DNA of 32,013 bases from Burkholderiaceae bacterium (lineage in GTDB: Bacteria > Pseudomonadota > Gammaproteobacteria > Burkholderiales > Burkholderiaceae_C), in the NCBI GenBank assembly GCA_004299095.1, contig SCQQ01000077.1, forward strand, positions 1 through 32,013, written 5' to 3'. The notes beneath the pieces were generated by a model that saw only the letters and a program-made list of their open reading frames with translations, was not told where the DNA came from and made no database searches. This document shows positions 6,645 through 25,793 of this stretch, in pieces. Numbering within the stretch: the first letter of the stretch is position 1; every line of letters starts with the position of its first letter. The position numbers were made by a program, and so were the translations under genes.

Positions 6645-6660
6645 GCCGCGCTGCCGGGAC

Positions 6661-8741: not shown

Positions 8742-9956
8742 TCAGCGCATGTTGCCGGTGTGGCCGAGCGAATAGCGGCCGGGCTGCGGCCACACCGCCA
8801 AGCCATGCGGTTCCATGCCCACCGGGATCTTGCGCACCGCGCCCGTGTCGGTGTCGATGGCATAGACCACGTCGTCGAAGCGCCCCGAGAGCCAGAGTGT
8901 CTTGCCATCGGCGCTGACGCCGCCCATGTCGGGGCTGCCGCCGCCCGGGATGGGCCAGTTGGCGATCACCTTGTTGGTCGCAAAGTCGACCACCGACACG
9001 CTGCCCGGGCCGTTGCGCGTGCCGTGCACCTTGTGCGTGCCGCGGTTGGTGACATAGAGCTTGCTGCCGTCGCGGCTCGGATAAAGCCCGTGCGTGCCGA
9101 TGCCCGTGTGAATGAAACCGACCCTGGTGAGGCTGTCGCCATCGACCAGCCAGACGCCATCGGCCATCATGTCCGCCACGTAGAACAGCTTGCCGTCGGG
9201 CGCGATGCGGACATCCTGCGGCATGCCGTTCTTGGATAGCTGCAGGTAGCCCAGCACCTTGCGGTTGCGCCAGTCGACCTTGACCATCTCGCCGCCGAAT
9301 TCACAGGTGAACAGCGCGTACTGGCCGTCGATCGAGAAGTCGGCGTGGTTCACGCCCTTGCACTGCGGCACCTCGACGCTGGCGATGAGTTTCATCGTGT
9401 GGGCATCGCGGAAATCAAGGCGTTTGCGCGCTTCGGCCACGACGATGGCCTCCTTGCCATCGGGCGTGAAGTACATGTTGTACGGATCGTCCACCGCCAC
9501 CGGTGCGCCGCGCTTGCCGGTCTTGGGATCGACGGGAATCAGGTCGCCGTCGGTATGCCCTTCGGCGTTGTCGGTGACCCAGAGCGTTTGCAAATCGTAC
9601 GACGGCACCACGTGCTGCGGGCTGCGGCCCACCTTGAACCTGTCCACCACCTTGTACGTGTCGGGATCGATCACGTAAACATCATCCGAGCGCAGGTTGG
9701 GAACGTAAATGCGCTTGAGCTGGCCGGCAACCGCCGGGCTCAGGTCGCCCGCTGCGGTCTGGCTGTAGACGTTGCCGCCAATCACCGGCGGCATGCCGGG
9801 AACGGTCTGAATGCCGGAGGCCGCTGCGCCTGCGGGGACGACAGCGGCCTTGGCATCGGCTGCGGCGGGCGCGCTCCAGGCCGTGGTGCCCAGGAGCGCA
9901 AGCGCACCCGCTGCCAGCAGCGTGCGGCAGAAACCATGGGACAAACGAAAACGCAT
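8742..9956 (-). CDS. Exported YVTN-type beta-propeller protein
   Basis: This protein of about 404 residues has a Sec signal peptide (LLAAGALALLGTTAWSAPA) and then about seven repeats of the cytochrome-cd1/YVTN-like propeller type, for example RIYVPNLRSDDVYVIDPDTY, TLWVTDNAEG, KLFYVADMMADGVWLVD, KLYVTNRGTHKV and TLWLSGRFDDVVYAIDTDTG. It should fold as a periplasmic beta-propeller. A GTG codon directly before the chosen ATG could also start it; TGGAG lies five or eight bases away. It follows the creatininase-like gene by 66 bases and is probably in the same unit. No catalytic residues can be assigned; a substrate-binding or scaffold role is an inference. Confidence 0.8.
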   Translation of the reverse strand: MRFRLSHGFCRTLLAAGALALLGTTAWSAPAAADAKAAVVPAGAAASGIQTVPGMPPVIGGNVYSQTAAGDLSPAVAGQLKRIYVPNLRSDDVYVIDPDTYKVVDRFKVGRSPQHVVPSYDLQTLWVTDNAEGHTDGDLIPVDPKTGKRGAPVAVDDPYNMYFTPDGKEAIVVAEARKRLDFRDAHTMKLIASVEVPQCKGVNHADFSIDGQYALFTCEFGGEMVKVDWRNRKVLGYLQLSKNGMPQDVRIAPDGKLFYVADMMADGVWLVDGDSLTRVGFIHTGIGTHGLYPSRDGSKLYVTNRGTHKVHGTRNGPGSVSVVDFATNKVIANWPIPGGGSPDMGGVSADGKTLWLSGRFDDVVYAIDTDTGAVRKIPVGMEPHGLAVWPQPGRYSLGHTGNMR

Positions 9957-10022
9957 CACTTGAACTCCAGAAAGAATTTCCTGACAGAACCCGCCTGCCT
10001 CAACGGCAGCGCATCACCCTCG

Positions 10023-10838
10023 TCAGCGGCCCGCCGTATCCCGGCGAATCGCACCCACCGTGGCTTGCACGATGGCATCCACCCCCAACTGCCCGAGCGC
10101 TGCCGTGGCGCCGCGCGGATCGCCGCCGTAGATGCCCTCTGCGGCCGTCGGCGCGGGCGCATGCGCCAGTTCCGCGCTGCGCACCATCCGCGGCGCCACC
10201 GCCAGTTCCAGCGCCGTGTCGGCCAGGCCCGCGTGCGTGCCGATGTCCTTCTCGGGCACGCCGTGCTGGCGCAACAGCGCGGCGTAGCCGGTGGAACTGG
10301 TTTCATAGTATTCCGGCGGCACGAAGGCGCGCGCGGACCCCTTGGCCCAGGACTTGTTCAAGCGCGCCACGACGTTGCGCACCGCGCCCTGGTAGCCGCC
10401 ATGGTCGCCCAGGAAAACCACGTTCCTGAAGCCCGCCGCCTTCAGGCTCTCGGCGGCCGATTCCAGCGTCTTCTCGAACACCGCAGCCGGCACCGTGAGC
10501 GTCCCGGGGAAGCGCATGTGCGAAGTCGGCGGCGCGATATTGCCCTCCGGCACGTAGGCAATCACCGGCGCCACCAGCGCGTTGCCCAGCTTTTCCGCGA
10601 TGCGTTGCGTCAGCACGAAGACGCGCGCGTTGTGCTTGCCCAGCGCGACGTACGGGCCGCTCTGCTCGGTGCCGCCAATGGGAATGATGGCCGTGGTCTT
10701 GCCGGCGTGGATTTCGGTCCGCAACTCGGTCCAGGTCAAATCTTCCAGCAGCGTGGTGCGCGGCGTTTGTGCACTGGCGGTCGCCATGGCGGCGGTCAAC
10801 AGCAGCGGGATGAGCGCGCGAAAAGCGTGAAACAGCAT
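10023..10838 (-). CDS. Exported creatininase-family protein with altered metal ligands
   Basis: The 271-residue product starts with a signal peptide (MLFHAFRALIPLLLTAAMATASAQ) and continues with a creatininase/MftE-type amidohydrolase fold. Family blocks are IIPIGGTEQSGPYVALGKHN, PEGNIAPPTSHMRFPGTLTV, FRNVVFLGDHGGYQ and GTHAGLADTALEL. In the first block the usual EQHG metal-binding His is Ser and the Asp nine residues later is His; the usual NGHGGN block is GDHGG. So either the metal site is rearranged, as may be normal in this periplasmic branch, or activity is changed. The start is set by the signal peptide; upstream in-frame sequence runs over the DUF3141 gene. The ribosome site is weak. 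Confidence 0.82.
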   Translation of the reverse strand: MLFHAFRALIPLLLTAAMATASAQTPRTTLLEDLTWTELRTEIHAGKTTAIIPIGGTEQSGPYVALGKHNARVFVLTQRIAEKLGNALVAPVIAYVPEGNIAPPTSHMRFPGTLTVPAAVFEKTLESAAESLKAAGFRNVVFLGDHGGYQGAVRNVVARLNKSWAKGSARAFVPPEYYETSSTGYAALLRQHGVPEKDIGTHAGLADTALELAVAPRMVRSAELAHAPAPTAAEGIYGGDPRGATAALGQLGVDAIVQATVGAIRRDTAGR

Positions 10839-10941
10839 GAAAAGCAAATCGGCCCCGAAAGGCGGGACCGAGTGACAGGTGCGCATTTTAATTGGCGCGC
10901 GGTCCGACGTCCCCGATGGGCACGCGGCGCAAGCCGGCGCT

Positions 10942-13215
10942 TCAAGCGCGGCGCTTGTGCGTCGCCTTCCGGTGGGTGGTGGTTGGCGCGGCCGCGTGCT
11001 CGGACCGGGGCGCGGCAACCGAGCGCGCCAGCGCCGCCGAGAACAGCGCATGCACGTGCTGCCGGCGGGTTTCCTCTTCAGGCGCCAGACTGGCCGACTG
11101 GGCCACCAATTCGTCGATGGCGCCCAGGCCCCAGCGTATGTCCTCAGCCGACGATTGCGCGAGCAAATGCGGAATCGCGCCAATGGCGGCGTCGGGATGG
11201 CGCCAGGCCAGCAGCGCCTGGGTGCGCACCAGATCGCGGAACGCCGCTTCATCCGGCAATTCACCGCCCAGGCGGTCGTACAAAATGCACCACACGCGCC
11301 GGAAATGGCGGCCGTCGGCCTCACCGCGCGCCTGCGCGATGTGGAACAGCGCGCGCAACACGGCTTCGTACACGCCGCCTTCATCGACGCTGGCCTCGCG
11401 CCGCTCCCACTCCCGCTCCAGATAGCGCAGATGCTCGGGCGCCTCGCCCGGGTGTGGCCGCGGCGGCGCGTCATCGCGCAGGCTTTGCCCGGCCAGCGCC
11501 TGCATGAAGGGCGAACCGTAAATCGAGCTGAACAGCAGCGCCTGCAGGTTGTCGCGCGCGTCGCGCCAGGCATCCAGCGTGCGCACGACGGCATCCGACA
11601 CGGCGTTCTGCCATTGCCACAATGGATTGTCGGGCGCCACCTTGGTCCGGTGCGCACGCACCGCCTTGGCCGCGACCGCAACGCCCTGCGCCCACGGGTT
11701 GCGGTCCGACCACCACTCGAACCCGAGCCGGACCGGCTGCAGCAGCTGCAGCCAGTGTGCGGTTTGCACGTTCGACAGCGCCCGCATCCACGGCTGCCAG
11801 ATGTTGCGGTACAGCGCCAGGTTGATTTCCGACACGCGCGCCGCGGCGGCAAAGCGGCGTTCGCTCGCCGGGTCGGGCTGCACGATGCTGCGCATCTCGT
11901 CGATACCGCTGCCGCGCAGCGTCATCAGGTACTTGCCGTCGAGCAAATCCTGCGCCGAGACGTTCGGCGGGCAATCGGCCACCTCGGCGCGGTAAATGCC
12001 GGCGGGCAGCAAGTCGATCAGGTCCATGTTGGCGGTGAACTCGCGATGTTCCTTGCGGCCCACGCTGCCCGACACGAAGATCCCGAGGTGCCCGATGCTC
12101 TTGTGCGTGGCAAAAACGATGGTCTGGTCGTGCGCATCGATTTCCGCGTCGTTGCGATACAGGTCGGTGATCCACCCGAGCGCCTGCGCCGGCGGCGTGA
12201 TGTTGTCGCCGTACGAGCAAAACACGATGATGGGCGAGCGGATGTTGCGCAAATCGATGCGCACGCCGTCCGAGGTGGTGAGTTCGGCCGTCGCCAGCTT
12301 GTTGCCGACGAACAGGTTGTCCACCAGGTACTGCATTTCCTCGGCGCCCAGAAACACGTGGCCGCCCCAATATTTTTCAAATTCGAGATAGCGCGGGCCT
12401 TCGGTGTCAACGTCGCGGTACACGTTGTATTGCTTGCTCCAGAGCGTGTTGGCCGGGTTCAGGCTTTCGAAGTTCTGCACCAGCCAGGCACCGTCGAAGC
12501 GCCCCGCACCCAGGTCGCTGGCAAGCGCCGTGCCCCAGCTGCCGCCCATGAGTCCGCCCAGGTAGCGCATTGGGTTGTCGCCGGCCCAGTACGACAGCGG
12601 TGAGCCGGCCACGAGGATCGGGCCGAACAGCTCGGGCCAGACCGCTGCGGTCATCAGGACTTGCCAGCCGGCCTGGCAGTTGCCGATGACGGCCGGTTTG
12701 CCCCATCTTTCCGGGTGCAGCTCGGCCACCTTGCGCACGAACGCCGCTTCGGCGCGCATCACGTCTTCGATCGTTTGTCCCGGCACCGGATCGGGCAGAA
12801 AGCCGACGAAATAGCACGGATGGCCGGCTTTCAGAATCTCGCCCACTTCGCTGTCGCGCTTGAAGCCACCGATGCCCGGGCCATGGCCGGCGCGCGGATC
12901 CACCACGATGAATGGCCGCTTGGTGGGATCGGCCTCGGCGCCTTCGGGCGGAACGATGCGCACCAGCCCGTAATTCACGGGCCGCGGCAGGTCGGCGCCC
13001 GACAGCACCAGCTCAGCCGGGAAGTTGAGCACGTTGGGCACGGCCTCTTGCAGATGCGCGCGGTACTGGTTGCCGCGCTGGCGCCGGATGTCGGCATAAA
13101 GCAGCGTGCGCTGTGCGGCATCCTGCACGTAACTGGCGGCCGCGCGCCACCCGGCGATCGGATCGAGCAGTGCGCTCATTCCGTTGAAATCATTCGCCCC
13201 AATCGCCTTGACCAC
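10942..13215 (-). CDS. DUF3141 alpha/beta hydrolase (PHA-synthase-like)
   Basis: This 757-residue protein belongs to the DUF3141 family, large proteins distantly related to polyhydroxyalkanoate synthases. The start is GTG with AAGGAG seven bases upstream. The alpha/beta core includes FIVVDPRAGHGPGIGGF, GHPCYFVGFLPDPVPGQT and the nucleophile-type element GNCQAGW with Cys180, similar to the G-x-C-x-G box of PHA synthases. Candidate Asp and His lie in FCSYGDNITPP and in HKSIGHLGIFVSG. The C-terminal 300 residues are helical, with a basic tail rich in His, Lys and Arg. It follows the patatin gene by 42 bases, which points to joint work on lipid or PHA metabolism. The reaction is not established. 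Confidence 0.85.
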   Translation of the reverse strand: MVKAIGANDFNGMSALLDPIAGWRAAASYVQDAAQRTLLYADIRRQRGNQYRAHLQEAVPNVLNFPAELVLSGADLPRPVNYGLVRIVPPEGAEADPTKRPFIVVDPRAGHGPGIGGFKRDSEVGEILKAGHPCYFVGFLPDPVPGQTIEDVMRAEAAFVRKVAELHPERWGKPAVIGNCQAGWQVLMTAAVWPELFGPILVAGSPLSYWAGDNPMRYLGGLMGGSWGTALASDLGAGRFDGAWLVQNFESLNPANTLWSKQYNVYRDVDTEGPRYLEFEKYWGGHVFLGAEEMQYLVDNLFVGNKLATAELTTSDGVRIDLRNIRSPIIVFCSYGDNITPPAQALGWITDLYRNDAEIDAHDQTIVFATHKSIGHLGIFVSGSVGRKEHREFTANMDLIDLLPAGIYRAEVADCPPNVSAQDLLDGKYLMTLRGSGIDEMRSIVQPDPASERRFAAAARVSEINLALYRNIWQPWMRALSNVQTAHWLQLLQPVRLGFEWWSDRNPWAQGVAVAAKAVRAHRTKVAPDNPLWQWQNAVSDAVVRTLDAWRDARDNLQALLFSSIYGSPFMQALAGQSLRDDAPPRPHPGEAPEHLRYLEREWERREASVDEGGVYEAVLRALFHIAQARGEADGRHFRRVWCILYDRLGGELPDEAAFRDLVRTQALLAWRHPDAAIGAIPHLLAQSSAEDIRWGLGAIDELVAQSASLAPEEETRRQHVHALFSAALARSVAAPRSEHAAAPTTTHRKATHKRRA

Positions 13216-15656: not shown

Positions 15657-16886
15657 TCAATCGGGCGCCCGCACCGGTGCCCAGAGCGTGATCCGTGTGC
15701 CCGAGCCTGCCGACGCCGCTTCAATCGTCAGGCGGCCGCCCAGCAAGCGCGCCCGCTCGTGCATGCCACGCACGCCTTTGCCGTAGGCGTGCGCCTGCCC
15801 GCGCCCAGCCCGGGCTTTCCCGCACCATGCGATCCCGTTGTCGACGACCTCCAGCTCTACCGCGTCCTGGCTTTCCAGGTACGAACAATGAACCATGAGG
15901 CGACTCGCTTGCGAATGCTGTACGACGTTGGCAAACGCCTCTTGCGCAATGCGCAGAATGTGGCGCGCGCGCTCGCCGCGCACCGTGTCGAGCCGCGCGT
16001 GAGGAATCACGTCCCACTCGACCCGGGTGCCGACCGCTGCAAACAGCGGCCCCATCCGATAGCGCAAGCTCGCAAGCAACGCCAGCACCGGCAAATCCTC
16101 GGCTTCGCCATCCACCAGCAGTTTCAGTTCGAGCAGACATTCCTGCAAACGCGCCACGACGGTGCGCTCGTGCGCGGTATCCTTTTTCAAGGCCGAAATG
16201 ATGCTCGACAGATGACCACCGACCCCATCGTGCAAGTCTTGGGCCATGCGCGCGCGCGCATGACGGGCGGTGCTGGCGGAACCAATATGCATCTTGACGC
16301 GGCGCGTGGCAACGAGCCAGATCAAGGCCAGCAGCGGCGTGTAAAAAACCTGCCCCCAGGACACGCCCACGGGCTGCCCCACCGCGTCCAGCAGATCATC
16401 AATCATGACGCCCACCGCCGGCACGGCAGTGAGCAACAACAGCCACCCGCGCGTGCCGCCGCGGCGCCACAAGGCATGCGCCAGCATCAGCACAAAAGTC
16501 AGCGTCATGGTGACATTGAACGCGGCCCACAACGGGAGACGCAGAACCCGCGCATCCGCAAGCGGCAGCAGAGCAAAACCGAAACCCAGAACCGCCTGTC
16601 CCACGAACATCCACTTGCGCAACGCGAGCGGGTCCCGGACCAGCGCCATGATCAGCGCCGTGACGCCCAGGATCATGCATTGGTAAGTCACCCGCGAGGC
16701 GGTGATCATGGGCACCCCGCTCAGGGCGCCAGCCGCCCCCAGCAAATCGAGCAGCGCGAGCACGGCAAACGGAAAGGTCGCGCAGAAATAGAGCGTATCG
16801 AGCCGGGCCGCCCCGCGGCGCCGGCCGACCCACGCGCACCCGGCGAGGAAGGATGCCGCAAGCAGAGCGATCCATTGCATGGCCAT
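15657..16886 (-). CDS. NarL-family sensor histidine kinase, seven-TM
   Basis: The 409-residue protein has about seven hydrophobic segments in residues 1-195, with no large periplasmic domain, then a HisKA_3 dimerisation helix ARMAQDLHDGVGGHLSSI with phospho-His219, and a HATPase domain: N-box QEAFANVVQHSQASR, G1-type EVVDNGIAWCG and G2-type GKGVRGMHERARLLGG. The G1 box reads DNGIA where DNGxG is usual. ATG has GGAGAG four bases before GACG. It lies 64 bases downstream of the response regulator stop and should be its cognate partner. The signal is probably sensed in or through the membrane. Given the divergent fibre genes, control of that locus is likely (inference). Confidence 0.9.
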   Translation of the reverse strand: MAMQWIALLAASFLAGCAWVGRRRGAARLDTLYFCATFPFAVLALLDLLGAAGALSGVPMITASRVTYQCMILGVTALIMALVRDPLALRKWMFVGQAVLGFGFALLPLADARVLRLPLWAAFNVTMTLTFVLMLAHALWRRGGTRGWLLLLTAVPAVGVMIDDLLDAVGQPVGVSWGQVFYTPLLALIWLVATRRVKMHIGSASTARHARARMAQDLHDGVGGHLSSIISALKKDTAHERTVVARLQECLLELKLLVDGEAEDLPVLALLASLRYRMGPLFAAVGTRVEWDVIPHARLDTVRGERARHILRIAQEAFANVVQHSQASRLMVHCSYLESQDAVELEVVDNGIAWCGKARAGRGQAHAYGKGVRGMHERARLLGGRLTIEAASAGSGTRITLWAPVRAPD

Positions 16887-16950: not shown

Positions 16951-17748
16951 TCACTCATAGAGCACCCCCCAGTCGGTCGCACGGTGCACCGCTTGCGCGC
17001 GCGAGCGCACTTCAAGCTTGCGGAAAACGTTTTTCAGGTGGGTGTCGACGGTCTGGTTGCTGATCACCAAGCGCTTGCCGATTTCGCAACTGGTGTAGCC
17101 AGTCGCGACCAGTTGCAGGATTTCGCGCTCGCGGGCTGAAAGCCTGCCCCCCGAGGCCCGGCCAGACCGTGCCTTTTTGCTGCTGGGTGCAGCGCTGCCG
17201 TCGAGGCGCTTGAGAAGGCGCCGCGCCAGCGTTGGGGTAATGGCCGCGCCGCCATTCACGACCTGCAGAACGGCTTGTGCGAAGTTGCCAAACCAAGAAC
17301 TTTTGATCAGATAGCCCGTTGCGCCCAGTTCAAACGCCTGCAGCGCCGATTCATCGTCCTCCATCACGGTGACGACCACGGCTTCCGCGTTGGGTCGCGC
17401 GCGCTTCACGTACTCGATCAGCTCGAATCCGGAACCATCGCGCAGCCTGAGATCAACCAGCAGCACGTCAAACGCGTGCGCAGCAATCGCGCGCTTGCCG
17501 TCGCGCGCCGAGCCTGCCTGAGCGACGAGGTCGATGCGCTGGTCGGCTTCCAGCTCACGCGCGATCTCGTCACGCATGTGCGGGTCGTCGTCAACCACCA
17601 CGACGCGCACGGGATGTTGATGCTGGCCCATCAGGAACGGCGGCCAGAGCGGCGCTTGGTATGGCCCCTGCACCGCGGGGCCCAAGCGACCGTTGCCGGT
17701 TTTGGTACCGTGCACCAAAGTGCCGGTTCGCTCTTCAGCGGACTTCAT
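16951..17748 (-). CDS. NarL/FixJ-type response regulator
   Basis: This 265-residue regulator has a receiver domain from about residue 47 (VRVVVVDDDPHMRDE, phospho-acceptor Asp99 in VLLVDLRLRD, Thr127, Lys149) and a LuxR-type helix-turn-helix near the C terminus (LSAREREILQLVATGYTSC, then IGKRLVISNQTVDTHLKNVF). The start ATG at 17748 has a very strong AAGGAGG eight bases upstream, so an unusual 46-residue N-terminal extension rich in Gly, Pro and basic residues is probably translated; the inner Met40 lacks a ribosome site. It is first in a two-gene unit with the kinase and transcribed away from the fibre genes, whose upstream region carries a NarL-like palindrome. Confidence 0.92.
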   Translation of the reverse strand: MKSAEERTGTLVHGTKTGNGRLGPAVQGPYQAPLWPPFLMGQHQHPVRVVVVDDDPHMRDEIARELEADQRIDLVAQAGSARDGKRAIAAHAFDVLLVDLRLRDGSGFELIEYVKRARPNAEAVVVTVMEDDESALQAFELGATGYLIKSSWFGNFAQAVLQVVNGGAAITPTLARRLLKRLDGSAAPSSKKARSGRASGGRLSAREREILQLVATGYTSCEIGKRLVISNQTVDTHLKNVFRKLEVRSRAQAVHRATDWGVLYE

Positions 17749-18022
17749 GGCTGCTTCCTCCTTCGGCCCCCTGGTGTCAGGGAACCTTCCACTCCACAGT
17801 CACTCCACCGGCTAATGCCGGATGTCGCGTCACTCGCGCGATCCGCGCTCAGAATCCATTGCAAGCGCAATGAGATGAAGCGTTTTCGGTGCGCAATTTC
17901 CGCAGCGACTACCTGATTCTTTTGCTCCCCCCTCCGGTGCTTTTTCACCGCCGTTAGCGCGTGTCCCACCAACGTGCTAGGGGTCTTTCAGAATAGCAGA
18001 GCCGCGCGCAGTTGGTACTGCC

Positions 18023-18038
18023 TACCCAATCCTGGGTA
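18023..18038. promoter_or_regulatory. NarL-type 7-2-7 palindrome
   Basis: TACCCAA-TC-CTGGGTA fits the NarL heptamer pair (TACYYMT, two bases, AKRRGTA) except for the innermost base of each arm. It lies about 190 bases before the fibre subunit start and 275 before the regulator start. As the divergent regulator has a NarL-type helix-turn-helix, this is a good candidate binding site (inference). Confidence 0.5.
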
Positions 18039-18048
18039 CGCCAACGCA

Positions 18049-18063
18049 TCCCCGTTCCGGGGA
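18049..18063. promoter_or_regulatory. Inverted repeat TCCCCG-TTC-CGGGGA
   Basis: A perfect 6-3-6 inverted repeat eleven bases after the NarL-type palindrome. It may be a second protein site or a hairpin in the fibre gene leader. Confidence 0.35.
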
Positions 18064-18081
18064 ATTCACACCGCTTCCCCG

Positions 18082-18095
18082 TCACTGCACAGTGA
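18082..18095. promoter_or_regulatory. Inverted repeat TCACTG-CA-CAGTGA
   Basis: A perfect 6-2-6 palindrome, suited to a dimeric DNA-binding protein, 133 bases before the fibre subunit start. Its regulator is unknown. Confidence 0.4.
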
Positions 18096-18227
18096 ACCCC
18101 GGCGCAACCCCAGCGGCGACTTCACCAACCACAAACCGCGAGGGCAGCGTCAAAGGGCCGGTTTCATCGGGCAATCCGAAGGCGCCGGAATGAGGAAAAA
18201 CATCTCATGCAAATCAGGAGAAATATC

Positions 18228-18749
18228 ATGAAAGTTAAAAAACTCGCGATCCTCGCGACCATGGCCTTCGCTTCGGTCGCATTCGCCGGCAAAGGACATG
18301 GTGGCGGCACAACCCCACCTCCGCCTACGCCGTCTGATCCGGTCTGCTCGATCTGTTCGTGGCAAGGCGTGTATGTGGGCGCGGCGCTGAACCAGGCGTT
18401 GACCATGAACGGCAGCAATGCCAAGGCCATCGCCAACGGCAGCAACACGACCGCCAACAACAACGTCGCGAGCAACACGTTCGGCGTGAAGATCGGCGCC
18501 GCGACGAACCAGGCCGCCACGTTCAATGGGTCGAATCTGCTGGCCGTCGCGGACGGTAGCAGCACCTCGGCTCAAAACAACGTGGCGAGCAACATCGGCG
18601 CGGTGTACGTAGGCGCGGCGCTGAACCAAGTGGCAACCGTCAACGGCAGCAATATCGTGGCGGTCGCCAAGGGTTCCAACACCCGCGCGGTGCAGAACCT
18701 GGCGAGCAACAACGCTTGCCAGACCTGCTCCAGCAACATGGGCAAGTAA
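18228..18749 (+). CDS. Secreted repeat protein, candidate curli-like fibre subunit
   Basis: The ATG at 18228 follows AGGAGA six bases upstream and gives a 173-residue protein with a Sec signal cut after AFA (residue 20). A Gly/Pro/Thr linker leads to CSIC (Cys40, Cys43), then three repeats of exactly 39 residues starting at 47, 86 and 125, then CQTC (Cys164, Cys167). Each repeat has the frame GxxxGAAxNQxxTxNGSN, then AxAxGSNT and NNVASN. Asn recurs every 9-11 residues (55, 64, 73, 83 and so on), as in a strand-turn solenoid. Composition (Asn, Gly, Ser, Ala, Gln) recalls CsgA, though the repeat sequence is not the curlin repeat. With the CsgG-like gene downstream, an exported amyloid-type fibre subunit is the best reading. 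Not proven. Confidence 0.75.
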   Translation: MKVKKLAILATMAFASVAFAGKGHGGGTTPPPPTPSDPVCSICSWQGVYVGAALNQALTMNGSNAKAIANGSNTTANNNVASNTFGVKIGAATNQAATFNGSNLLAVADGSSTSAQNNVASNIGAVYVGAALNQVATVNGSNIVAVAKGSNTRAVQNLASNNACQTCSSNMGK

Positions 18750-18767
18750 GTACGGTAGGTTGAGCGT

Positions 18768-18814
18768 GCAGCAGGATCGACTGTCTTCCGTGGACAGCCT
18801 GCTGCCGCTCTTTT
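18768..18814 (+). terminator. Hairpin with T-tract, terminator or attenuator
   Basis: GCAGCAGG (18768-18775) pairs with CCTGCTGC (18798-18805), and inside it CTGTC pairs with GACAG around a seven-base loop; CGCTCTTTT follows. It lies 18 bases after the repeat-protein stop and just before the next gene's ribosome site. Partial termination here would make the subunit in excess over the downstream genes. Confidence 0.7.
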
Positions 18815-18835
18815 GCGGATAACCGGGAGGTCGCC

Positions 18836-19357
18836 ATGAACAGCCGCTCATCCAATGCGCTGCTCGCACTCGTCATCTCGATAAACGTACTGATCGCGTT
18901 TGTCATCGCGGGTTTCAGCCCACGCGCACATGCGCAGAACGCACCGGGCACCGATCCGATCGTGATCTCTGGAAAAATAAGCTTCGAAGGACTCCCGATG
19001 GGACAGCCCAGCGTGTCAGAGCCGCTTGACCGGCGCTCTGAATTGCCTTCCTGGCTGCAAGCCAAGATCGTGCGCCTGGAAGCCAAAGCCTACGCCGCCC
19101 TGGGTGGCGGCGACGGCACCATTTACACCGAGCAAGACGTGGTGAGCCGCCAAACCGGCAACGCGCTGCAGAAAACGTGCACCACCAACGTCGCGAGCAA
19201 CGCGGGTACGCCGACCACGACCGGTCCGGTCAGCCCCAGCGGCAATCCGATCGGTCCCAACGCCGGTGCTGCCGGCCCCGGGGGCAGATTCGGGCCTGGA
19301 GCGACCACGAATCAAATCGCCGTTCTGCGCGGCAATCTGGTCACGATCTGCAAGTAG
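18836..19357 (+). CDS. Exported protein with degenerate fibre repeat, candidate nucleator
   Basis: This 173-residue protein starts at an ATG with GGGAGG five bases upstream and has an N-terminal hydrophobic signal (residues 9-26, likely cut after AHA at residue 33). The middle is not recognised. The C-terminal part holds NVASN (118-122) after Cys115, a Gly/Pro/Thr-rich stretch, then GATTNQIAVLRGNLVTIC (155-172). These match, in order, the NVASN and GAATNQAATFNGSNLL elements of the upstream repeat protein, including a nearby Cys at each end. That suggests a minor subunit able to template or cap the fibre, by analogy with CsgB. The start of the next gene is 145 bases away. Confidence 0.65.
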   Translation: MNSRSSNALLALVISINVLIAFVIAGFSPRAHAQNAPGTDPIVISGKISFEGLPMGQPSVSEPLDRRSELPSWLQAKIVRLEAKAYAALGGGDGTIYTEQDVVSRQTGNALQKTCTTNVASNAGTPTTTGPVSPSGNPIGPNAGAAGPGGRFGPGATTNQIAVLRGNLVTICK

Positions 19358-19502
19358 CGATCGCCGGATTTCAAGCGTCTTGAATGACCTGTCCGCAACA
19401 CAGGTCCCCGAACGAACAGACCACGAATGGATACGGGGCCAGCCGCCCCGTTGCCGCGGGAAAAACCCAACCAACACCGCGGCATCACTGGAGGAGATCA
19501 TC

Positions 19503-21161
19503 ATGCGACGCACCCGACCGAGCGCTCCAAAGCGCGCTTCATCTCTTGGCCTTCGCGCGCAGATTAGCTGCGCGGCGGTCAGCCTTTTGATGCTGGCGGG
19601 CTGCAGCACGCCGATATCACCCAAGGACGACGCGCTGTTCCAGTCCTACGCGAGCGGCTCGGATCGGCCGGCGACCCGGCCGGTACGCTCGATCACGAGT
19701 TTCACCGGGGCGCTGTCGTGCATGGATCACATGATGCGCGACGCCGGAACGACCACCACGCTCATTTCGAGCACCTTTTTCCCGGATTATTCGGGGCGCG
19801 TGCCGGTGAACACCAAGGACATGGTGATCACGGCACTGTCGCAAATGTCGCGCGTCTCCAACGCGTTCCGCTATGTCGATTTCGAAGTCGACATCGCGCG
19901 TCAGGACACGGTGCAGAACCTGACCACGATCCTGCTCAACACCAACCAGATGCAACTGCAGCGCCCGGCGCTGTATATCTCCGGCGGAATCTCGTTCGTC
20001 GATCAGGGCGTCCTGTCGGCCAACCACAGCGCCGGTATTTCCGGTCCGAACGTCGAGGCTGGCTACAACCGGGATCGCTCGGCCACCGTGATCGGCCTGG
20101 AGATGCATCTGGGTGATTTCCGCACGCGCACCTTCATCCCGGGCATGGACTCCGCCAACGAAGTGGTGATCGGCACCTCCGGCCAGGGGCTGGATCTGGC
20201 CGGTCGAATCGGCGTTTATGGACTGCAATTCAACATCGGACGCAACCTGACGCAAGGCTCCGGCGCCGCGGTGCGCGCCTTGGCGGAACTGGCCTCCATC
20301 GAGCTTGCGGGCAAGTACACCAAGCTGCCCTATTGGCGTTGCCTGATGCAGGACGACACCAACCCCGAATTCCAGCGGCAACTGCGGGAGTGGTACGACT
20401 CGGAAAGCGCCGCCACCCACGCCCGCCTGATCGAGCGCTACCTGGCGAGCCAAGGCTACCTGTCGCCAGCGGCCACGCCCACCACGACGCAGAACGCCGC
20501 GGCGCTGCGCGACGCCATCGCGCGCTTCCAGGCCGACCACGGCATGGTGGTCACCGGTATCGTCGATTTCACCCTCTACGAGCGCGCCATGCGCGACTTC
20601 GTGGCGCAGGATGAAAACGGCCACCTGACGCGGATCGGCTGGCCCAGCACCGGCGCAATTCCGGAACCCGCGCCACTGGCGATCGACATGCAAATCGAAA
20701 ACCCGGTGCGCGATCGCTCGAAGTTCGCGCCCGGAACCCAGATCTTCGCGTCGGCCACGCTGTCGCGCTCGGCGTACCTGTTCTGCTACCTGCGCGACGC
20801 CAACGGCAACGTGGTCCGCATCCAGCCCAACATGGCCAATCCGTCGGCCTTGGTATCGGCCAACCAATCGGTGCGCCTGCCCGACTGGATGGTTCCCTAC
20901 CCGGCGTACGTGCTCGAAGCCGGACGTCAGGGCAGCGAATCGTTGCTCTGCATTGCCACCACCGAGGACCCGACGGCACGGCTGCCCGAAGCGCTGCGCG
21001 CACCCGCGCTCACGCCGGTCAAGGGTTACGCCGATCTGGATCAAGTCAGGGAAGCGTATGTCACAGCCACGCAAGGTCACGACATCGCCACCCGTGCCCT
21101 GACATGGACCATCACAGCGCCGCCCAACGGAACCGCCGTGGCCAAGCCGAAAGCGCAGTGA
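19503..21161 (+). CDS. CsgG/HfaB-like outer-membrane lipoprotein fused to PG-binding and DUF4384 domains
   Basis: The ATG at 19503 follows GAGGAG. The 552-residue product has a lipoprotein signal with lipobox LAGC (Cys34; Ser at +2, so sorted to the outer membrane). Residues 60-285 resemble CsgG/HfaB: a LYISGGISFVDQG strand, a long strand region RSATVIGLEMHLGDFRTRTF, then VYGLQFNIGRNLTQGSGAAVRALAELASIELAGKY split into helix and LPYWRCL end, matching the order in the curli pore. Residues about 305-365 look like a PG_binding_1 domain (RYLASQGYLSP, RFQADHGMVVTGIVDFTLYERAM). Residues about 395-490 fit DUF4384 (AYLFCYLRDANGNVVRIQPN, VRLPDW, ESLLCIATTEDP). The likely role is export channel for the upstream repeat proteins, anchored to the cell wall. 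CsgE and CsgF are not present nearby. Confidence 0.78.
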   Translation: MRRTRPSAPKRASSLGLRAQISCAAVSLLMLAGCSTPISPKDDALFQSYASGSDRPATRPVRSITSFTGALSCMDHMMRDAGTTTTLISSTFFPDYSGRVPVNTKDMVITALSQMSRVSNAFRYVDFEVDIARQDTVQNLTTILLNTNQMQLQRPALYISGGISFVDQGVLSANHSAGISGPNVEAGYNRDRSATVIGLEMHLGDFRTRTFIPGMDSANEVVIGTSGQGLDLAGRIGVYGLQFNIGRNLTQGSGAAVRALAELASIELAGKYTKLPYWRCLMQDDTNPEFQRQLREWYDSESAATHARLIERYLASQGYLSPAATPTTTQNAAALRDAIARFQADHGMVVTGIVDFTLYERAMRDFVAQDENGHLTRIGWPSTGAIPEPAPLAIDMQIENPVRDRSKFAPGTQIFASATLSRSAYLFCYLRDANGNVVRIQPNMANPSALVSANQSVRLPDWMVPYPAYVLEAGRQGSESLLCIATTEDPTARLPEALRAPALTPVKGYADLDQVREAYVTATQGHDIATRALTWTITAPPNGTAVAKPKAQ

Positions 21162-21173
21162 TTTCCACGCGAT

Positions 21174-21200
21174 GCGGAGCCGCCACGAAAGCGGCTCCGC
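21174..21200 (+). terminator. Ten-base-pair hairpin without T-run
   Basis: GCGGAGCCGC and GCGGCTCCGC form a perfect stem around CACGAAA, twelve bases after the CsgG-like stop and 30 before the Sel1 gene. No T-tract follows, so it may be an RNA processing or stability element or a weak terminator. Confidence 0.45.
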
Positions 21201-21230
21201 CTTGACCACCGCACTTCAGCGAGGCCCTCG

Positions 21231-22445
21231 ATGGACCATTCCACCCGTTCCACCAAGCGCCGGCCCGATGGCATCCAAGCGAAAGGCATGGGCGGCGCGC
21301 CATCCCCGCCGCTCCTGCTGGGCGTGCTGCTGGCGCTGCTGACGCAATCGGCCGCCGCACAGCCCGGCCCGCACATCGATCTGCAATCGCAACGCGTGCC
21401 GGATATCCGCGTCACTCCGGAAAACGCACCGCCGGTTCAAGTGAATCCACAGCGACCTGAAACCAGCGTGCGCTCCGGGAGCCCGAATGATTCGCGCGCC
21501 AGCCAGCCGGCGGCAACCGTCACACGCGAACTCGATCAACTGCGGCGCAGCGCGACGCCAGCTTCCGGTTTTGGCTCGACGCAATCCGCGGCGCACGCCG
21601 CCTGGGTCCTCGGTCTCCTGAGCCTGCACGGCATTGCCGTGCCGTTCGACCCGCAGCAAGCAGTCGTGTGGTTCCGGCGCGCGACCGGCGCCAATCACGA
21701 ACCGCTCGCCTGGGCCGGCATGGCGTGGTGCGCGATCGACGGCTGCGACGGCCCGCCCAACCCGCCGGAGGCGCAAGCCGCCATCGACAAACTCAAGCGG
21801 GTTCAGCGCAGTCGTGCGCTCTACCTGCAATGGCTGCTGGATGTCGCGCACAAGCCCATCACCCTGGCCGAAGCCGACGCGGATTCAGGCTCGATGTCAA
21901 GGAAACTGCCGCAAGCGGCGTTGTTGCAGCAAGCCGCCAAAGCCGGTGACGCGCCGGCACAGGTCGAACTGGGCGTCGCAGCAGCGGCACGTGGTGATTT
22001 TGCGTTGGCGCGCCAGTATTTCCGCAGCGCCGCCAGTCGCTCACCGGCCGCACGGGCCAACTTGCGCTTGCTCGACGAACGCGAGGCCAGCAGCCACCCC
22101 CGCAAAGGGAGCGAAGCCGACCAGGTGCTCGCGCAGGCGCAGCGCTTTCACCGCGGCGACGGCGTTCCGCTGAATTACGCGGAAGCCATCCGGCTGTACC
22201 AAAAGGCGGCAAGCCTCGGGAGCCTGCCGGCACGGCGCATGCTGGAGCTCATCCTGTCGCACCCCACGCCCCAAGGTTCGATCAACATCGGCTGGATGGC
22301 TCGACTGGCGCAACTGGACCCCACGTCCAACCTGCCCGCGCTCGACAGTCGGCGCTTCGCCGGCATCATGGAGCGCGATCCCACGCCGCTGGTCGACCTG
22401 ATTCCGGCGCCCTGGCGGCAGCGCATGGGAACCGAACTTCGCTGA
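21231..22445 (+). CDS. Exported Sel1/TPR repeat protein
   Basis: The 404-residue protein has a long basic N-terminal region, then a hydrophobic signal (PLLLGVLLALLTQSAAAQ), so it should enter the periplasm. A Pro/Gln/Asn linker follows. The rest is made of helix pairs of the Sel1 type, seen at AAWVLGLLSLHGIAVPFDPQ, AALLQQAAKAGDAPAQVELG, ARQYFRSAASRSP and best at FHRGDGVPLNYAEAIRLYQK. Met1 is chosen because GAGG lies six bases upstream; Met20 has a poorer site. As last gene of the fibre locus it may scaffold the export complex or check subunits, but this is by position only. Confidence 0.75.
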   Translation: MDHSTRSTKRRPDGIQAKGMGGAPSPPLLLGVLLALLTQSAAAQPGPHIDLQSQRVPDIRVTPENAPPVQVNPQRPETSVRSGSPNDSRASQPAATVTRELDQLRRSATPASGFGSTQSAAHAAWVLGLLSLHGIAVPFDPQQAVVWFRRATGANHEPLAWAGMAWCAIDGCDGPPNPPEAQAAIDKLKRVQRSRALYLQWLLDVAHKPITLAEADADSGSMSRKLPQAALLQQAAKAGDAPAQVELGVAAAARGDFALARQYFRSAASRSPAARANLRLLDEREASSHPRKGSEADQVLAQAQRFHRGDGVPLNYAEAIRLYQKAASLGSLPARRMLELILSHPTPQGSINIGWMARLAQLDPTSNLPALDSRRFAGIMERDPTPLVDLIPAPWRQRMGTELR

Positions 22446-22803
22446 CGATGGGGTGCGCAGCGGCGGTCATTCAACGCGTGAAATCGCTGTTGAGCCCGCC
22501 GCGGATGTGGTTGGACGATCCCGGGACAGGCAACGCCGGGCATGCGGCCAAGTCCGATCGCACCGCAAGAATGCGATGCGACCGCCCAGCTATCCCGCTC
22601 CCGATTTGAATTGATAATGATTCTCACATATATTCAGCATCGTGAAATCGATCGCGAACGTTGGGGTGGCGCCGAATCCGGCACCGGTGTGTCGCGGGGC
22701 CAGCCGCGCGTGCAGCAGCGCGTCGACCGACATGCAGCGGTCCAGCAGAACGGGCCCAGCCGCCAACCACCGCACCCGCGATTGACATCATCGGTTTCAA
22801 TTC
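22446..22803. other. Intergenic region and leader of the iron-uptake unit
   Basis: This 358-base gap contains a Fur-type promoter (listed separately) and about 170 bases of leader before the permease start. I see no intrinsic terminator for the fibre locus and no credible small gene. Confidence 0.5.
22606..22634 (+). promoter_or_regulatory. Fur-controlled promoter of the iron permease
   Basis: TTGAAT (-35, 22606-22611) and TATATT (-10, 22629-22634) are 17 bases apart. The spacer holds TGATAAT-G-ATTCTCA (22612-22626), one base off the 7-1-7 Fur consensus. Iron-replete Fur would block this promoter (established for Fur; applied here by inference). Confidence 0.7.
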
Positions 22804-24438
22804 ATGCCGCCCGCCATCCGCTCCGCCATCGCGGCCGACACGCTCACACAGCGCGCCGGCAGATGGCCGCTGCGCGCGCCCAAGCCGCGTAGCGCAGCCA
22901 CACCGGTCCGCCACCGCCTCCACACGCTGCGCCACCCCTGGCTGCTGGCCGCGGCGTTGGTTCCGCTGGCACTGGTTGCGCTGCCTATCGTCTACGCGGT
23001 GCTGCGCGCGATGCAAGCGGGCTGGACGGGCGTTCGCACCGAACTGCTGCGCGCCTACACATTCGAGCTGCTGGCCAACACGCTGATCCTCGCGACGGGC
23101 GTGATGCTGCTCTCGGCCTTCATCGGCTTGAGCGTGGCGTGGTGCATCGAGCGCACCGACTTGCCATTCCGACGCTTTTGGCGCGTGGCCGCCGGCCTGC
23201 CGTACGTGATTCCGGCGTTCGTGTCCAGCTATGCGTGGTCTTCCATCAGCGTGTATTTCCAGAGCATGGCGGGCGCCATCCTGATCCTGTCGCTCGCGGT
23301 CTATCCGCTGGTCTACTTGCCCGTGGCGGCCGCGCTGCGGAGCACCGATCCGGGGTTCGAAGACGTCTCGCGCGCGCTGGGCTACGGTCCGTGGAGAACA
23401 TTCGCCCGTGCGCTCATGCCACAACTCCTGCCGGCCCTTGGGGGCGGGGCGCTGCTGGTACTCACGCACATGTTCGCCGAGTTCGGCGGCCTCGCCATGC
23501 TGCGCGTGCAGACCTTCACCACGGCGATTTTCGAAGCCTACGAATTGCAGTTCGACAGCGCCTCGGCCGCGCTGCAGGCCATCGTGCTGATGCTGCTGTG
23601 CATCCCCGCTGCCTGGGGCGAGATGCACTTGCGCATCGGCCGCCGTTTTGCCCGCGTGGGCGGCGGCAGCGCGCGCGCGGCCACGCCGGTGCGCCTCGGG
23701 CGGCGCACCTGGCCGGTGCTGGGCGCGTTCGGCGTGCTCGGCGTGCTGTCGCTGGGCGTGCCGCTGACGACGCTCGCCTACTGGCTGTTCACCGGCCACT
23801 CGGCCGGCCGCGGCTACGACCAGATCTGGCCCGCGATCGAAGGCACCGTCACCCTTGCCGGTTCCGGCGCGGTGCTCACCAGCCTGATCGCCATTCCGCT
23901 GGTGCTGCTGGCGGTGCGCGAGCGCGGACGCCTGGCGCAACTGGCCGAGCGCCTGCCGTACATCGTGCACGGGTTGCCTGGCGTGGTGATCGCGCTCGCG
24001 CTGGTCTTTCTGTCGATTCGCGGCGTGCCGGGGCTGTATCAGACCGCCGCGCTGCTGCTGGTGGCGTACGCGGTGCTGTTCCTGCCGCTGGCGCAATCGT
24101 CGCTGCGCGCCTCGGCCGAACTGCTGCCGCCCCAGCTCGAAAACATCGCACGCAGCCTGGGCAAGCGGCCGCTCGGAGCGTTCATCTCGGTGATCCTGCC
24201 CAACATCGCGCCTGGCATCGGCGCCGCGCTGGCCCTCATGACGCTGGAAATCGGCCGCGAGTTGACCGCCACGCTGATGCTGGCGCCCACCGGCACCACG
24301 ACGCTGGCCACGCAAGTCTGGTCGTACACGGCCGATGGCGAATACGCCGCCGCGGCGCCGTTTGCGGCGCTGCTGATCGCCATTTCGATCATCCCGGTCT
24401 GGGTCTTCACGCGGCGCTCGCTGCGCCATGGGCGCTAG
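22804..24438 (+). CDS. fbpB: Ferric iron ABC transporter permease (FbpB type)
   Basis: The 544-residue inner-membrane protein is a fused two-domain permease like FbpB/SfuB, with about twelve membrane segments. Each half has the EAA-type cytoplasmic loop that docks the ATPase: DPGFEDVSRALGYGPWRTFARAL at about residue 182 and PPQLENIARSLGKRPLGAFISV in the second half. The N-terminal 45 residues are basic and cytoplasmic. The first ATG is used; the ribosome site is not evident, so the start could be elsewhere. It lies under a Fur-type promoter. The ATPase follows after a palindromic element; the binding protein is further downstream in its own unit. Confidence 0.88.
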   Translation: MPPAIRSAIAADTLTQRAGRWPLRAPKPRSAATPVRHRLHTLRHPWLLAAALVPLALVALPIVYAVLRAMQAGWTGVRTELLRAYTFELLANTLILATGVMLLSAFIGLSVAWCIERTDLPFRRFWRVAAGLPYVIPAFVSSYAWSSISVYFQSMAGAILILSLAVYPLVYLPVAAALRSTDPGFEDVSRALGYGPWRTFARALMPQLLPALGGGALLVLTHMFAEFGGLAMLRVQTFTTAIFEAYELQFDSASAALQAIVLMLLCIPAAWGEMHLRIGRRFARVGGGSARAATPVRLGRRTWPVLGAFGVLGVLSLGVPLTTLAYWLFTGHSAGRGYDQIWPAIEGTVTLAGSGAVLTSLIAIPLVLLAVRERGRLAQLAERLPYIVHGLPGVVIALALVFLSIRGVPGLYQTAALLLVAYAVLFLPLAQSSLRASAELLPPQLENIARSLGKRPLGAFISVILPNIAPGIGAALALMTLEIGRELTATLMLAPTGTTTLATQVWSYTADGEYAAAAPFAALLIAISIIPVWVFTRRSLRHGR

Positions 24439-24442
24439 CCCG

Positions 24443-24593
24443 CTGAGCCATTGAAATGCCGCCCGAGGACCGCATGAGACGAGATGCGATACAAGGCGCA
24501 AAGCGCAGCGATAGCCGGCGCTATCGCGAGCATTTGCAACGCCGCAGCGCGCCCGTATCGCGTGGGCAGCGGGAGGCGATTTCAGTGGTTCAG
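24443..24593. repeat. 151-bp palindromic MITE-like element
   Basis: The ends CTGAGCCATTGAAAT (24443-24457) and ATTTCAGTGGTTCAG (24579-24593) are inverted repeats with two mismatches. Inside are GCGATAC/GTATCGC (24486-24492, 24555-24561), GGCG/CGCC, and a central GCGATAGC-CGGC-GCTATCGC (24508-24527). The whole can fold as one long stem. It starts four bases after the permease stop and ends just before the ATPase start. It has no coding capacity. It could be a non-autonomous mobile element or an mRNA processing structure. Confidence 0.6.
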
Positions 24594-24607
24594 TGGGCTC
24601 CACCGCA

Positions 24608-25711
24608 ATGAGCGACATCGAGGTCAAGGGGTTGTGCAAGTCGTTCGGCGCCGTGCAGGCGCTGCGCGGCATCGACCTGACGATCCGGGCCGGCTCGGTG
24701 CTCGCGCTGCTCGGGCCTTCGGGCTGCGGCAAGACCACGCTGCTGCGGCTGATTGCGGGTTTCGACGTGCCGGATGACGGCGAGATCCGCTTTGCCAGGC
24801 AGGTCATGGCCTCGCCTGCGCGATTCGTGCCGCCGGAGCGCCGCGGCATCGGCTACGTGCCCCAGGAAGGCACATTGTTTCCGCACCTCACGGCTGCCGG
24901 CAATATCCGTTTCGGTCTGCCGCGCGGCGCGGCGCGCGACCAGCGCATCCGCGAAGTGCTGGCGCTCACCAGCCTGGATGGCTTGGGCAGCCGCTACCCG
25001 GACGAACTCTCGGGCGGCCAGCAACAGCGCGTGGCGCTGGCGCGCGCGCTGGCGCCCAAGCCGCGCCTGGTGCTGCTGGACGAACCTTTCAACGCCCTCG
25101 ATCTGGATTTGCGCCGCAGCATTTGCGAAGAAGTGGTGGGCGTGCTGCGCGGCACCGGAACCACCGCGGTCCTGGTCACGCACGACCCGGGTGAAGCTTT
25201 CGCCGCGGCCGACGAGATCGCCGTCATGCAGGACGGCCACATCATGCAGTGCGATCGCCCCGAGACCGTGTATTGGCAGCCTGCCAACCCGGCGGTCGCG
25301 CGCCTCACGGGTTCCGCGCTGTTCCTGCCCGGCCAGTTCAGACATCAGGGCGTCGAATGCTGCCTGGGCGCTCTGTGCCTGCCGCAGGGCATGCGTACAC
25401 CTTCCGCCGGACCGGCCACCGTGATGGTGCGGCCCGAGCAAGTCCGCTGGAGCCCGAGCGGACCGGGCGTGGCCACGCGCGTCACGCAGCGTTCGTTCCG
25501 CGGCAGCCACACGCTGGTCGAACTGGATCTGGGCGGAACGCGGCTCAACTTGCGCATGCCTTCGCTCTCCGCGCCAGCCACCCAGTGCGCCGGTTTCGTT
25601 ACCGTGACGGGCTGTTGCATGGCCTACCCGGCAGACAACATGCCCCATGAAAGCATGGCACGGCCAGCGGGCGAGACGGCCGTCGCCGGCGTGGACGAAA
25701 TGGAGCTGTAG
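24608..25711 (+). CDS. fbpC: Ferric iron ABC transporter ATPase (FbpC type)
   Basis: The 367-residue product is an importer ATPase. Walker A GPSGCGKT is at residues 36-43, the Q-loop YVPQEGTLFPHLT follows, the signature LSGGQQQR is at about 136, Walker B LVLLDEPFNALD at about 158, and the switch His in VTHDPGEAF. A TOBE-type domain fills the last 120 residues (VMVRPEQVRWSPSG). It powers iron uptake with the upstream permease. ATG at 24608 is preferred to a GTG five codons earlier; neither has a strong ribosome site, perhaps because the palindromic element ends 14 bases upstream. Confidence 0.9.
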   Translation: MSDIEVKGLCKSFGAVQALRGIDLTIRAGSVLALLGPSGCGKTTLLRLIAGFDVPDDGEIRFARQVMASPARFVPPERRGIGYVPQEGTLFPHLTAAGNIRFGLPRGAARDQRIREVLALTSLDGLGSRYPDELSGGQQQRVALARALAPKPRLVLLDEPFNALDLDLRRSICEEVVGVLRGTGTTAVLVTHDPGEAFAAADEIAVMQDGHIMQCDRPETVYWQPANPAVARLTGSALFLPGQFRHQGVECCLGALCLPQGMRTPSAGPATVMVRPEQVRWSPSGPGVATRVTQRSFRGSHTLVELDLGGTRLNLRMPSLSAPATQCAGFVTVTGCCMAYPADNMPHESMARPAGETAVAGVDEMEL

Positions 25712-25730
25712 CGCGCTTCGGCTTCCGCAC

Positions 25731-25793
25731 CATCGCGCCATCGCGCCATCGCGCCACCGCGCCATCGCGCCATCGCGCCACCGCGCCACCGCC
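25731..25793. repeat. Octamer tandem repeat, about eight copies
   Basis: The unit CATCGCGC, with CACCGCGC as a variant, is repeated head to tail nearly eight times, ending in a partial copy. It begins 20 bases after the ATPase stop. The unit is not a multiple of three and no gene crosses it. Such arrays often vary in copy number between strains. Confidence 0.85.

Follow-up and report, generated by a model that had tools for sequence, protein, structure and literature searches.

What does a six-gene locus of a Burkholderiaceae bacterium (assembly GCA_004299095.1, contig SCQQ01000077.1, positions 1 to 32,013) carry to the cell surface, and is its product curli? The window analysed here is this whole stretch of 32,013 nucleotides, in which an initial annotation had placed a curli-like fibre locus at 16951-22445. 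All genes named there are present in the window, namely those for a repeat protein (P0001), a small exported protein (P0002), a pore lipoprotein (P0003) and an exported Sel1/TPR protein (P0004), with the genes for a NarL-type regulator (P0005) and its kinase (P0006) divergent from them. The interval encloses the regulator and the four plus-strand genes, but the kinase gene lies outside it. The locus is real and forms one conserved unit. It is best placed within CsgG/HfaB-type surface-protein export, and the system probably exports a beta-solenoid surface fibre, which would probably be amyloid-like and probably be under two-component control. The suspicion of an undescribed branch was right, but the curli label fails: the pore leans towards HfaB, the repeats, tail and predicted fold of P0001 are FapC-like, and curlin is missing.

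A pattern scan with P0003 over 84,980 species genomes yielded 34 loci, 32 of which carry source names that we take to be Burkholderiales or genera placed in that order; the other two are unplaced metagenome-assembled genomes. Of these loci, 31 encode P0001, 32 encode P0002 and 33 the Sel1 protein; regulator and kinase were each found in 28. The gaps coincide with contig ends. The six loci in which regulator and kinase are missing (L005, L008, L009, L015, L027 and L031) all start near a contig end, the three that lack P0001 (L008, L027 and L031) have their contig edge at the pore gene or immediately ahead of it, and in L021 the contig stops 120 bases past the pore, with the Sel1 gene missing and the other five genes present. 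The six-gene set is thus complete in 27/27 loci that extend far enough both ways (L003, L024 and L028, contigs from one assembly, being counted as three of the linked loci). Wherever upstream DNA was sufficient, the regulator gene is divergent from the P0001 gene and the kinase gene adjoins it (28/28 for both). The gene-neighbourhood survey therefore bears out the proposal of a single unit. In L028 the pore frame and the Sel1 frame are each split in two, and this locus was excluded from alignment A1.

The link between repeat protein and pore was also seen in 250 family genomes. The pore was found in 37 (expect value (E) ≤1e-30) and P0001 in 29 (E ≤1e-5); all 29 belong to the 37, with P0001 on the same contig and about 2 kb or less from the pore, and P0001 occurred in 0/213 family genomes without a pore match. 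Repeat-protein homologues regularly found without the pore gene, which would have spoken against a fibre unit, were hence not seen (pore in 29/29). The eight remaining pores, without P0001, show greater divergence (E 1.4e-151 to 1.5e-31). The source genome itself holds a second copy of the cassette (L065, contig C87), with a pore 73% identical and with P0001, P0002, the Sel1 protein and the regulator. By eye, the neighbours of this copy resemble cold-shock, ClpS and ClpA genes.

P0003 combines a lipobox (LAGC, with C34 invariant in 31/31 aligned rows) with a region that had been called CsgG/HfaB-like, a call that profile-profile comparison and the divergent relatives uphold but curated models do not. 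Neither P0003 nor any other protein of the genome matches Pfam CsgG (PF03783), and the NCBIfam HfaB model NF037935 reaches P0003 with just E 0.093 and 11.9 bits, against a cut-off of 300 bits. The P0003 alignment matches divergent relatives with E down to 1.7e-71; an order-level survey found such a match in 15/300 genomes, close relatives counted in. Among divergent pores, the HfaB model lists 7/8 with E from 2.6e-6 to 0.13 (best three 2.6e-6, 7.6e-5 and 2e-4; top score 26.8 bits, under the cut-off), and Pfam CsgG gives matches below cut-off in 3/9 (E 0.02-0.17). By curated models, HfaB fits the pore relatives better than CsgG does. Compared by hhalign with a CsgG-family alignment (31 rows, the L098 row being only a 7-residue fragment), the superfamily profile scored 97.5%, the 11 divergent pores alone 98.2% and the Comamonadaceae alignment alone (31 rows) 80%. 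Four reversed CsgG comparisons remained at 0.1-0.5% (0.3% for the superfamily profile), and seven other profiles, including FapF (0.2%) and seven open reading frames (ORFs) chosen by length and tail pattern, at 0.1-1.1%. Judged from these profiles, P0003 is distantly related to CsgG/HfaB and carries PG_binding_1 and DUF4384 domains in addition. PMC3521004 ties members of the CsgG superfamily to surface placement of CsgA. P0003 had no match up to E 1 in a Protein Data Bank (PDB) sequence search, and further PDB matches of the A3 pore profile fell on its peptidoglycan-binding part. Separately, P0003 residues 91-279 (~19773-20339) are matched with E 6.8e-6 by phrog_20175, a phage protein family whose function is unknown. 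A paper on a marine methylophage (PMC9004378) reportedly names CsgG often.

P0001 is built of a signal peptide (assigned by eye, as were those of P0002 and the other proteins and the N-terminal membrane part of P0006), a Gly/Pro-rich linker, three exact tandem repeats of 39 residues and a CxxC tail. At period 39, 48/91 positions repeat; among 5000 shuffles tested at periods 10-59, the highest count was 31. Motif counts across the family (n=32) gave three repeats in 25 members, four in 2 and five in 5, and a near-terminal CxxC is present in 27/32, the protein of the window counted. An AlphaFold2 (AF2) model shows a beta-solenoid with four strands per repeat, with ten-residue means of the predicted local distance difference test (pLDDT) of 77-95 over the repeats. 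Its top PDB match by Foldseek was FapC (9u4u; E 1.1e-3), and realignment on that structure gave Z 4.9 with a root-mean-square deviation (rmsd) of 3.9 over 108 residues, the following rows having Z ≤3.3; the E. coli CsgA fibril ranked fourth in both structure lists (E 0.21; Z 2.8). The predicted fold of P0001 is thus closest to that of FapC, a Greek key, as a moderate match. According to PMC12392863, FapC repeats measure 38-39 residues, number three in 94% of FapC and each form one cross-beta layer, and PMC6173800 describes a conserved CxxC in FapC that is absent in CsgA. By contrast, P0001 is not curlin as far as sequence models tell: the suggestion that its repeats depart from curlin is upheld by a genome devoid of the curlin repeat PF07012 and by a curlin hidden Markov model (HMM) built here, which reached the P0001 family with E 31 at best. 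No FapC-repeat match was found in the genome either. A PDB sequence search with P0001 gave no match up to E 10, four PDB rows obtained with the A2 profile (E 0.12-0.51) were regarded as chance, and neither P0001 nor P0002 had an NCBIfam match up to E 1 in a library not checked for HfaA/HfaD models. Among the described families tested, sequence comparison therefore found no home for either protein. Single-repeat hhalign stayed below 5% in all pairings, even between P0001 and the repeats of other pore-linked proteins; being this insensitive, it carries no weight for or against homology, and HMM searches of ORFs were used instead. In two genomes (G782, contig C16, and G983, contig C67), a pore has two adjacent P0001 copies at its side, which may be paired fibre subunits.

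The pore extends well beyond the P0001 family. A wider pore profile (E ≤1e-8) matched 19/299 phylum genomes, 14 of them outside the class, so that the system is scattered and not common. P0001 is missing beside most of these divergent pores, which come from Burkholderiales and from phylum members of other classes. With a strict detector, 12/24 pore loci (11/23 without the second copy L065) had an exported tandem-repeat protein no more than 4.5 kb away, compared with 0/20 control stretches of similar span from pore-carrying genomes; the detector misses degenerate repeats visible by eye in L073-L076, L176, L180, L182 and L183. At five of five more loci outside the class (L213-L217), such a protein was seen by eye. 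Since L069/L184, L216/L217 and L003/L024/L028 are closely related, the locus counts are not all independent. Repeat types vary, with N/Q/G-rich units of about 30-39 residues and one detected period of 63 that is a double unit. In a set of 8520 ORFs enriched in pore loci, the best matches of the P0001-repeat HMM beyond the P0001 family were pore neighbours in L186 (1e-13), L176 (3e-5) and L213 (4e-4), which ties the P0001 repeats to other pore-associated repeat proteins and argues for shared ancestry there.

P0002 recurs in a similar manner. A search model of 32 P0002 homologues and six divergent small proteins detected a P0002-like protein within 2.5 kb of 20/28 divergent pores (14/22 outside the training set) and in 0/20 control stretches. 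A model of the six divergent proteins alone recovered Comamonadaceae P0002s with E 2e-7 to 5e-3 (~4,700 ORFs), and P0002 compared with these six scored 96.8%, falling to 59% without the L176 protein, which is itself close to P0002. The related motif that had been read into P0002 was not borne out, as the repeat HMM, run over ~4,700 ORFs, scored P0002 at E 9.1 and three P0002 homologues at E 4.6-8.9, none of them significant. P0001-P0006 are without a Pfam match to CsgE or CsgF, and the P0002 profile scored <1% by hhalign against the individual CsgE and CsgF sequences of E. coli, in agreement with the earlier observation that these factors are absent from the locus. As divergent pores often stand near N/Q-rich repeat proteins and a P0002 relative, the pore, P0002 and the repeat protein appear to make up the core of a broader system. 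Whether the locus is a branch of an undescribed Pseudomonadota export class (a CsgG/HfaB-type pore whose tail binds the cell wall, a small two-Cys partner and an interchangeable N/Q-rich beta-repeat subunit) that makes FapC-like fibres under a private two-component system is, in our judgement, an even call. Neither curli nor Fap nor holdfast is known to combine FapC-like fibres, a CsgG-like pore and a private two-component system. Among the papers listed by a literature search without subscription papers and preprints, none described the locus or a CsgG-like pore that bears DUF4384 and is accompanied by repeat proteins, which does not prove that no such description exists.

Other features of the divergent pore loci were recorded on the side. 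In L071, two unlike repeat proteins (6023-6649 and 9826-10998; units of ~30-32 residues, QNQSGLLNKQ...) flank one pore and are perhaps major and minor subunits. Exported DUF2807/GIN-domain-like beta-helix proteins, recognised by eye, recur 3′ of the pore in L068, L073, L176 and L186, those of L176 and L186 giving weak P0001-repeat HMM matches (E 0.011 and 0.034). Also by eye, caspase-like (peptidase C14-like) proteins lie 5′ of the pore in L177 and L182, and OmpA-like proteins near it in L066, L067, L073 and L177.

We lean towards a dedicated surface-fibre system in which P0001, exported via P0003, would build an amyloid-like fibre. Going by their signal peptides, P0001 and P0002 would leave the cytoplasm by Sec. 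P0003, as its domains suggest, would be lipidated, moved to the outer membrane and oligomerise as a CsgG/HfaB-type pore, which the peptidoglycan-binding domain would anchor to the cell wall. P0001 may pass this pore unfolded and, according to the predicted fold, would form stacked 39-residue beta layers at the surface, three per molecule. Such stacked layers would extend into the amyloid-like fibre, and the CxxC tails may cross-link fibres. P0002, the recurrent pore neighbour with two Cys, would be the likeliest pore-side adaptor or nucleator, while P0004 is likely a periplasmic scaffold; its comparison with NCBIfam AlgK gave E 0.0015, far under the cut-off. The divergent kinase and regulator would switch the operon, as their conserved linkage suggests.

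Several results weigh against such a fibre system. For the pore, besides the missing Pfam match, the Comamonadaceae alignment scored 57% against curli CsgGs and 33% against the other CsgG set. In the AF2 model of P0003, made from 31 close relatives, residues 82-257 have pLDDT <50, and no CsgG was among the best 50 of 1235 Foldseek matches, which were GlgE, sulfite oxidase, antibody-type and similar beta proteins. Against the PDB, the A3 pore profile reached CsgG with E 0.39-0.96 and a lipoprotein-carrier chain (2w7q), overlapping part of the CsgG-matched region, with E 0.029. For the subunit, Z 4.9 is a middling value and Foldseek itself superposes the model poorly on FapC (template modelling score 0.14, rmsd 16.8). 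An HMM built on 11 fap loci (31 FapC repeats) had no P0001 relative among its best 25 non-Fap matches, to E 28, and in a larger run no P0001 family member up to E 1; in the reverse direction, P0001-repeat HMMs reached Fap ORFs with E 4.2 at best, a second version finding none up to E 100. The curlin HMM result counts here as well. The build of P0001 is FapC-like and a sequence-profile tie is missing, which leaves a likeness without demonstrable kinship to FapC. As to the setting, visual inspection showed no repeat protein next to L072, L181 and L185, the detector reported none at L187, whose match covers just 65 residues, and the kinase was not found within the 14 kb stretch around the second copy L065.

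Could the same genes make an anchor instead of a fibre? In a holdfast-anchor-like complex, P0003 would act as HfaB, and P0001 and P0002 would be short anchors for polysaccharide or the S-layer, comparable to HfaA and HfaD, and not long fibres. In HfaABD of Caulobacter crescentus, surface placement of small proteins, of which one is amyloid-like, likewise needs a CsgG-like outer-membrane protein, PMC6707917 has HfaA and HfaD depend on a CsgG-like protein, and HfaB is the nearest curated pore model to the P0003 relatives. We nevertheless consider this explanation unlikely: the HfaB cut-off is far from reached, P0001 and P0002 lack an NCBIfam match up to E 1, and no polysaccharide or holdfast gene was seen among the four flanking genes scanned. 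Different from HfaABD are also the extra PG_binding_1 and DUF4384 domains of P0003 and a two-component system and Sel1 gene belonging to the locus.

Less probable still is a Fap system (FapABCDEF) whose FapF has been replaced by a CsgG-like pore, which would make P0001 a true FapB/FapC homologue. Three 39-residue repeats, a CxxC tail and FapC as top structural match, in line with the published properties of FapC given above, are what one would expect of it. Yet the FapC-repeat and P0001-repeat HMMs fail to connect the two families, and the P0001 repeats, which follow each other without linkers, link instead to other pore-associated repeat proteins. FapD, FapE and FapF are absent among the six genes, and the pore is CsgG/HfaB-like, in contrast to the trimeric barrel of FapF.

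Membership of the curli family is largely refuted, and we give a divergent branch of canonical curli hardly any credence. What the locus shares with curli is a pore of the CsgG superfamily and a predicted stacked beta-solenoid subunit, and some repeat proteins near divergent pores had weak scores with the curlin-repeat HMM (E 0.009 in L178; E 0.02 in L045, which is the same place as L068). It differs in that PF07012 and PF03783 are both absent from the genome, the P0001 family is out of reach of the curlin HMM, the repeats have 39 residues and not ~22, CsgE and CsgF are missing among the six genes, with hhalign rejecting P0002 for either part, and the domain architecture of P0003 is unlike that of the curli pore; P0005 is only generically CsgD-like (56.5 bits with the CsgD model, cut-off 250). 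No better placed is an envelope-sensing or cell-wall system that keeps its lipoprotein, Sel1 protein and repeat protein in the periplasm and exports nothing, which the PG_binding_1 and Sel1 domains and the adjoining two-component system would suit, but which squares poorly with a P0003 domain aligned over the CsgG part that contains both transmembrane hairpins and with the recurrent pairing of the pore with signal-peptide-bearing N/Q-rich repeat proteins.

An element seeded on ACACTGAACCCCGACAGCGC was found within 6 mismatches in 17/27 regions upstream of the P0001 gene, at 119-147 bases before the start in every case, and in ≤3/27 in 30 rounds of a shuffle control; the count is inflated, as the seed was picked from these very sequences and some loci are near-identical. 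The copy in the window has 6 mismatches in 20, and a 12-mer scan seeded on it did not rise above the control (7 versus 7). On sequence grounds, the element about 139 bases before the P0001 gene is a candidate regulator site. No promoter was found, and terminator-like sites numbered 2, compared with 2.1 in shuffles.

Table 1. Features of the locus in the window (positions of the whole stretch)
Feature	Position	Strand	Basis or remark
P0006, sensor histidine kinase of HisKA_3/HATPase_c type	15657..16886	-	Pfam HATPase_c 3e-7; HisKA_3 4e-4, just under cut-off
P0005, NarL/LuxR-type response regulator, start codon uncertain	16951..17748	-	Pfam Response_reg 1e-18, GerE 6e-20
Candidate conserved regulatory element, seed ACACTGAACCCCGACAGCGC	18089..18114	+	begins 139 bases 5′ of P0001 start
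P0001, repeat protein, predicted beta-solenoid fibre subunit	18228..18749	+	alternative start 18207
P0001 repeat 1, residues 53-91	18363..18479	+	period-39 analysis
P0001 repeat 2, residues 92-130	18480..18596	+	period-39 analysis
P0001 repeat 3, residues 131-169	18597..18713	+	period-39 analysis
P0001 C-terminal CxxC, residues 171-174	18717..18728	+	both Cys invariant in 22-row alignment
P0002, small exported protein, two Cys in C-terminal part, end ...NQIAVLRGNLVTICK	18836..19357	+	
P0003, putative outer-membrane pore lipoprotein: lipobox, CsgG/HfaB-like domain, PG_binding_1, DUF4384	19503..21161	+	
P0003 CsgG/HfaB-like pore domain, ~residues 62-281	19686..20345	+	hhalign versus CsgG-family profile
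P0003 PG_binding_1 domain	20424..20573	+	Pfam E 2e-9
P0003 DUF4384 domain	20724..20966	+	Pfam E 5e-11
P0004, exported Sel1/TPR protein	21231..22445	+	Pfam Sel1 E 4e-12

Beyond the locus, GATAATGATTCTC occurs as an exact copy at 22613-22625 and is presumably a Fur-box-like sequence; 13/100 shuffles contain a copy with ≤2 mismatches. It lies 5′ of genes for an ABC-transporter permease (22804-24438) and a TOBE-domain ATPase (24593-25711), perhaps an iron-regulated uptake operon. Directly 3′ of the ABC ATPase gene, an 8-base tandem repeat, CGCGCCAT, runs for 8.4 copies (25726-25792).

To our knowledge, only a small number of routes for amyloid export have been described in bacteria, and CsgG has found use as a nanopore. 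If the fibre system holds true, a pore family with a constant small partner and changing cargo would make the subunit features recognised by a CsgG-type pore directly testable, and it would become testable whether FapC-like layers arose more than once. Comamonadaceae are frequent in water and sludge biofilms, and for this family the locus would provide a candidate matrix fibre together with a candidate regulator.

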